From: Candidatus Woesearchaeota archaeon
GTDB taxonomy: Archaea > Nanobdellota > Nanobdellia > SCGC-AAA011-G17 > ARS1403
Length of the DNA stretch: 64,000 nucleotides
NCBI GenBank assembly: GCA_016188065.1
Contig: JACPIN010000002.1
Location: 1 to 64,000, forward strand
Direction: 5' to 3'
The notes below the pieces were generated by a model. The model ran no database searches. It was not told the origin of the DNA and saw nothing but the letters and a program-made list of their open reading frames with translations. The translations under genes and the position numbers were made by a program. This document shows, piece by piece, positions 12,824-13,933 of the stretch; positions within the stretch are counted from its first letter, which is position 1, and the number at the start of each line of letters is the position of its first letter.

Positions 12824-13933
12824 ATGAAAAATTACAGGAAGATATATCTAAAATTATGCTCTATAGAGAATCTAAACTCGGCTTTCAAGAAAGCAAGAGA
12901 AGATAAAGCAAGTTTGCCTTATGTGATTAAGTTTGAGAAAAATTTAGTAGAAGAGTTAAAGAAACTTCAGAAAGAATTGTCTTCAAAGACATACAAGTCA
13001 TTTCCATTAAAAAGATTCATAATAAGGGATCCAAAGACAAGGACAATTCACGCATCTGCTTTCAGAGACAGGGTTGTTTATCATGCTTTAGTCAATATTT
13101 TAGAGCCGATTTTTGATCCAATCTTTATTCATGATTCATACGCATCTAGAAAGGGAAAAGGAACTTTGAAAGCGGTCCAGAGATTTGATCATTTCAAGAG
13201 AAAAATAAGCAAGAATGGAAGATTAGCAAAAAATGCCTACAATAAAAGCAGTGTTGTTGGTTATGTTTTAAAAGCAGATATTAAGCATTACTTTGATACA
13301 GTAGATCACGAAAGATTATTGAGAATAGTTGAAAGTAAAATAAAAGATGAAAATGTAATGTGGCTAATAAAGCAGGTTTTAGTCAATTTTGATTCTCCCA
13401 TTAAAGGAAAAGGAATGCCCTTAGGAAATTTAACTTCTCAATTCTTTGCGAATGTTTATTTGAATGAACTAGACCAGTTTGTAAAGCACAAATTAAAAGC
13501 AAAATATTACATAAGATACGTGGATGATTTTGTAATATTACATAATGATAAAGGAAAATTATTAGAATATAAAGATAAAATCGGCAAATATTTAATGTAT
13601 TTAAAATTAGGATTGCACCCAACCAAGTCAAATATCATTCCTTTAAGAAACGGAATTGCTTTTTTAGGTTACAGGATATTTTATCATCACAAACTATTAA
13701 GAAAAAGCAATATAGATAAGTTTGAAAGGGATTTCAATCAAAAGCTTGAGATTTACGAAGGGGGGGGGGGGCGATACTCGTATGAAAATTTGCTTGCAAG
13801 CATTGAAGGATGGTTCGGCTATGCTATGTGGGCAAATACTTACAAATTAAGAAGAGAAATTATAAAACAAATTAGAGCTTTAGAGAATAAATGCTCAAAT
13901 AAAACACTACATCTCCCTAAAATCAGGGAATAA
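12824..13933 (+). CDS. DGR-type reverse transcriptase
   Basis: GMPLGNLTSQFFANVYLNELDQF and YIRYVDDFVIL; adjacent TR and VRs. Confidence 0.95.
   Translation: MKNYRKIYLKLCSIENLNSAFKKAREDKASLPYVIKFEKNLVEELKKLQKELSSKTYKSFPLKRFIIRDPKTRTIHASAFRDRVVYHALVNILEPIFDPIFIHDSYASRKGKGTLKAVQRFDHFKRKISKNGRLAKNAYNKSSVVGYVLKADIKHYFDTVDHERLLRIVESKIKDENVMWLIKQVLVNFDSPIKGKGMPLGNLTSQFFANVYLNELDQFVKHKLKAKYYIRYVDDFVILHNDKGKLLEYKDKIGKYLMYLKLGLHPTKSNIIPLRNGIAFLGYRIFYHHKLLRKSNIDKFERDFNQKLEIYEGGGGRYSYENLLASIEGWFGYAMWANTYKLRREIIKQIRALENKCSNKTLHLPKIRE

Follow-up and report, generated by a model that had tools for sequence, protein, structure and literature searches.

Diversity-generating retroelements (DGRs) of the Bordetella phage BPP-1 type and the archaeal DGRs of DPANN and ANMV-1 (PMC4372165) are built around a common reverse transcriptase (RT) family and fold, with adenine-specific differences between a template repeat (TR) and a variable repeat (VR), and with the VR at the 3′ end of the target gene. 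All of these are shared by a DGR in the stretch analysed here (the window), positions 1 to 64,000 of contig JACPIN010000002.1 of a Candidatus Woesearchaeota archaeon. The RT gene of this DGR contains a run of twelve G, and in this it resembles the poly-G contingency loci of Campylobacter, Neisseria, Helicobacter and Bordetella (PMC8355987, PMC5084427, PMC1891110), where runs of about 8–14 G likewise lie inside otherwise intact genes and the reading phase is random among strains. Phasevarions, governed by phase-variable DNA methyltransferases (PMC6902483), likewise place a contingency tract on a master gene that alters many outputs. We interpret the tract as a contingency switch by which a DPANN-archaeal DGR would undergo phase variation of its RT gene, a reading that rests on comparison of sequences and to which we assign a probability of about 0.77.

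The locus departs from each of these systems. Known DGRs are not described as phase-variable in the literature searched, whereas here the RT gene itself bears the slippage tract; no accessory protein, Avd or HRDC-like, was recognised among the neighbouring open reading frames (ORFs) scanned (no Pfam match). The bacterial poly-G loci are mostly surface or modification genes, whereas the gene here encodes an archaeal mutator enzyme and belongs to a family in which CG(A) follows the run almost constantly. The output of a phasevarion is methylation, whereas a switched DGR would deliver targeted diversification of sequences. DGRs and poly-G contingency loci are both well established, and their combination is new within the literature searched: among open-licence papers nothing was found that joins mutagenic retrohoming with phase variation, nor any DGR with an RT switched by poly-G, and the DGR papers searched for frameshift or homopolymer contained no mention of either.

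The G12 tract of the reverse transcriptase gene

The gene at 12824–13933 (plus strand), a 369-codon ORF that is intact (ON) in the assembly, encodes the DGR reverse TRANSCRIPTASE (369 aa), with the catalytic YVDD motif at residues 232–235. It matches the Pfam family RVT_1 (E 1.6e-22), and its best sequence match in the PDB is the DGR RT of Bordetella phage BPP-1 (8ub7, E 6.6e-45), which is also the top fold match (E 5e-20) of a structural model built on an alignment of 60 sequences (mean pLDDT 81.5). The first-pass annotation had placed a 12-G run at 13760–13771 within this gene, and the run is indeed there, on the plus strand and in frame (GAA GGG GGG GGG GGG CGA), forming codons 313–316 and encoding four glycines directly before CGA.

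The tract was also said to be extreme for AT-rich DNA, and genome statistics bear this out. The genome, from a tiny uncultured archaeon (881 kb in 26 contigs, 35% GC, 91% complete), has sixteen G7 runs, none of G8–G11 and a single G12, which is its sole G run longer than 7 and its sole run of either G or C longer than 8. A first-order Markov model predicts 0.0036 runs of this length per genome strand, and a chance origin was rejected from the run census and this expectation. Because GGG makes up only 19% of glycine codons, four glycines all encoded by GGG would occur with p ~0.001.

Truncation of the RT by a one-base change, as the annotation proposed, stands with a minor qualification. The computed protein is 341 aa after loss of one G and 320 aa after gain of one, and G10 and G14 yield 319 and 342 aa. 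The frame shift removes the conserved GWFGYAMWANTYKLRR region, deleting two C-terminal helices and, with them, the conserved GW.GY..WA.T region, and the catalytic YVDD would remain. Truncation at this position, here called site C, thus probably but not certainly inactivates the RT.

The same site varies among relatives. A second RT of the same genome (73% identity) has GGTGGGGGGGCG, a G7 run interrupted by T, and an RT from a metagenome (also 73% identity) has G6CGA. In G048 the site holds G11, out of frame, and in G154, from another order of the same class, it holds G9CGATACTC, in frame. Among the closest proteins, drawn from a search of 5.8 billion, the full-length relatives P0004 and P0006 read through the site with five and three glycines, and three others stop just past the tract, namely P0011 (320 aa, ending CEWGGGAIHF), P0012 (CEWGGAFHH) and P0042 (QIGGGGRSRFRKNPW), in keeping with shifted frames. 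In one group of archaeal DGR-type RTs (P0121–P0239, P0126) the C-terminus bears a helix-turn-helix domain, HTH_40.

Recurrence of poly-G tracts among reverse transcriptase genes

Runs of nine or more G were taken, without regard to RTs, from 106 genomes of the order (all runs) and from among those listed for 401 genomes of the phylum (Nanoarchaeota), and 160 distinct runs were examined with their surrounding DNA. Of these 160 sampled runs, 27 fall within DGR-type RT genes and read as G on the coding strand; in 2 others the coding strand has C. RT matches amount to well under 0.1% of the DNA in those genomes, so only about 0.1 runs would be expected within them (Poisson p ~1e-55, given this approximate expectation). 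When the proteins around the 160 runs were clustered, RT formed the largest family, with 30 runs when antisense and flanking ones are counted in, against 5 for the second largest.

Homology and tract searches together yielded 286 non-redundant RT genes, of which 37 contain a run of at least eight G, at one of four sites. Site A (model positions ~130–137) coincides with a loop at 132–138 of the predicted window RT structure; site B (176–192) lies just before the GMPLGN motif, with a loop at 188–195; site C (313–314), that of the window, falls in a loop at 313–319; and site D (248–249) is near the start of a helix. Truncation at site B removes YVDD, so the RT must then be inactive. The lengths are G8 (2 genes), G9 (13), G10 (13), G11 (5), G12 (3) and G14 (1). 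There are 4 runs at G7–8 (two of them G7) against 35 at G9–14, and only 2 C runs of eight or more; the G9 search inflates the upper length class, and intermediate runs are nonetheless scarce. Among RTs sampled by homology, the tract is present in 8 of 77 from metagenomes and 3 of 70 from genomes, counts that favour intact genes. No run of eight or more G was found in 63 viral RTs from IMG/VR contigs, and the site-B tract pattern had no match in 2.9 million viral contigs.

The DNA directly after the run is also conserved. CG follows 25 of 27 RT tracts (20 as CGA) compared with 23 of 132 other runs (p 8e-14), TC often stands in front, and the GnCGA motif occurs at all four RT sites in differing codon frames. 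Shared ancestry probably accounts for part of this regularity at site B, not all of it, and the sequence flanking the run may matter to its origin or slippage. On balance, we favour the view that a near-constant GnCGA at four sites of one gene is the sign of a specific process by which the tract arises or is preserved.

Several further runs were noted. C runs on the coding strand occur at the N-terminus of two RTs (L245, 1501–1510, and L442, 1502; G002 and G136) and just downstream of a third (L462, 1502; G180), in each case as a mirror image of the GnCG motif, and a G10 run precedes the start of a bacterial DGR-type RT by ~25 nt (L165, 3435–3444). In other Nanoarchaeota, G9–G12 followed by CGA is found at the N-terminus of predicted secreted proteins (L457, 1502, G12CGA; L409; L413), which have signal peptides as judged by eye, at least one being apparently out of frame, and which resemble phase-variable surface proteins.

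Reading phase and integrity of the tract-bearing genes

Of the 37 RT genes with a tract, 21 break into two reading frames there, compared with 4 of the 249 that lack one (Fisher p 4e-18). When the frame was determined separately on each side of the run, 8 genes at site B proved to be in frame (2 carrying a further stop), 8 at +1 and 9 at +2. This random phase fits a freely slipping tract; a programmed frameshift would fix one offset. Over all sites, 13 genes are cleanly in frame, 2 are in frame with another stop and 21 are out of frame, to which is added L252 (from G048), out of frame by inspection.

Most of the out-of-frame genes are otherwise well preserved. Of 18 full-length split genes, 17 have no stop elsewhere and keep the YxDD motif. 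For two OFF genes with 83% DNA identity (L143 and L150), the ratio of nonsynonymous to synonymous substitution rates (dN/dS) is 0.113 before the tract and 0.114 after it, and for a second pair it is 0.225 and 0.226; dS is high and the values are therefore rough, the equality across the tract being the informative part. By this measure the OFF genes are not dead, purifying selection being equal on both sides of the tract where tested. Many OFF loci also have TR/VR pairs with 10–20 changes at A and none elsewhere (for example G101, with 20 and 0, and G359, G289, G363 and G393), and these elements have therefore diversified their targets.

Probable phase variation of the mutator

Recurrence far above chance, confinement to four sites, approximately random phase and otherwise intact genes, with equal purifying selection across the tract where tested, together make up the pattern that comparison is expected to show at a contingency locus driven by slippage. 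The comparison with related RTs that the first-pass annotation had suggested thus lends strong support to its proposal of phase-variable on/off control, from which we infer a switch at the DNA level. Slipped-strand mispairing at the run during replication would change the number of G. A tract of G12, or of a length differing from it by three, would give full-length RT and turn mutagenic retrohoming ON; other lengths would give a truncated RT and turn diversification OFF, reversibly, so that cells would be a mixture of DGR-ON and DGR-OFF. No match to MutS was found in the 91%-complete genome by a search that finds it in 11 of 14 control genomes, and slippage may therefore go uncorrected. The benefit would lie in keeping a mutator mostly silent while random cells are ON. 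Slippage in cells, its reversibility, the loss of activity on truncation, the effect on retrohoming and this advantage are parts of the model that we infer.

The same design, with 8–14 G at one of four RT sites, recurs across Nanoarchaeota DGRs, and it seems reasonably probable that these form a class of phase-variable mutators, with an RT switched stochastically by poly-G and a small fraction of cells diversifying their targets. How DGRs are restrained from constant mutation is not settled, and a contingency tract in the RT gene would, if the reading is true, be a simple answer. The mutator itself would then be randomly switched, making a two-layer diversity generator and, as far as the literature searches reached, the first well-supported case of slippage-type phase variation in archaea. 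The reading also predicts which deposited 'broken' DGR RTs are just temporarily off.

Some observations weigh against a switch. Most DGR RTs of the group are without a tract, and some of those with one have a second lesion (G048, G041, L031, L348). Near-identical loci differing in tract length were found neither among the loci examined nor through homologous-protein searches, and switching within a population was therefore not seen. The genomes are metagenome assemblies, in which homopolymer lengths may be off by one base. Truncation at site C leaves the catalytic core in place, so loss of function there is not certain, and the regular CG after the tract is unexplained by simple slippage.

Poly-G runs are known polymerase slippage sites, and the tract could instead act at expression, slippage of RNA polymerase or the ribosome yielding a fixed minor fraction of full-length RT whatever the tract length, so that the gene would be dosed rather than switched. 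Equal selection across the tract in the OFF/OFF pair would also be expected were some RT still made from OFF genes. A programmed frameshift, however, normally has a single fixed offset, whereas offsets of 0, +1 and +2 are equally common here and tract lengths spread from 8 to 14; the 8:8:9 phases disfavour it as the sole explanation, yet both mechanisms could act together. Dosing in place of switching is thus unlikely, although it is the most credible of the alternatives. Decay into drifting pseudogenes without function would account for over half of the tract-bearing RTs being out of frame and for the few that also have stops. Neutral drift, however, produces neither G runs in AT-rich DNA nor four recurrent sites, and it agrees poorly with 17 of 18 full-length split genes lacking another stop, with a dN/dS of 0.11 after the tract and with A-diversified VRs beside OFF RTs; we regard it as very improbable.

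A tract that merely encodes a flexible glycine loop is about equally improbable. In the predicted structure a loop joins two helices at this site, and several intact relatives have three to five glycines there, but codon choice speaks against such a role, all four glycines being encoded by GGG, as do the reading of GnCGA in different codon frames among RTs, the frame-broken state of some close relatives at this point and the lack of glycines at the loop in others. Least probable of all is a sequencing or assembly artefact such as a poly-G read tail. These do occur in deposited genomes, as in L308 (1502–1527), where a G9 run at the end of a contig passes straight into Illumina adapter sequence. 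The RT tracts, by contrast, are mostly mid-contig, come from many different assemblies, share four sites and lie, with few exceptions, on the coding strand, while that of the window is in frame; an artefact was accordingly rejected for the RT tracts, the adapter case lying elsewhere.

The retroelement and its neighbourhood

The DGR at this locus is real, as seen from its DGR-type RT, the A-specific mismatches between TR and VR, and the position of the VR at the 3′ end of the target ORF. The TR (12698–12768, plus strand) lies just 5′ of the RT gene and has a 70-nt match to a VR at 11811–11881 (plus strand), at the 3′ end of the target ORF 11058–11915 (plus strand, without a Pfam match). Over these 70 nt, 16 of 21 A's are altered and there are 0 other mismatches; mutagenic retrohoming is visible at the locus only as this footprint of A-biased VR changes. 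A second VR of the same TR is at 8590–8664 (plus strand), with mismatches at 12 of 20 A's and 1 other, and a probable third, more diverged VR, identified by eye and unscored, is at 11042–11130 (plus strand), at the 3′ end of ORF 10400–11161.

Located between the target gene and the TR (11953–12473) are a small ORF and a PemK/MazF-like toxin gene. Downstream of the DGR are two similar pairs of nucleotidyltransferase and HEPN genes, at 14004–15286 and 16449–17751, the second recognised by its similarity to the first.
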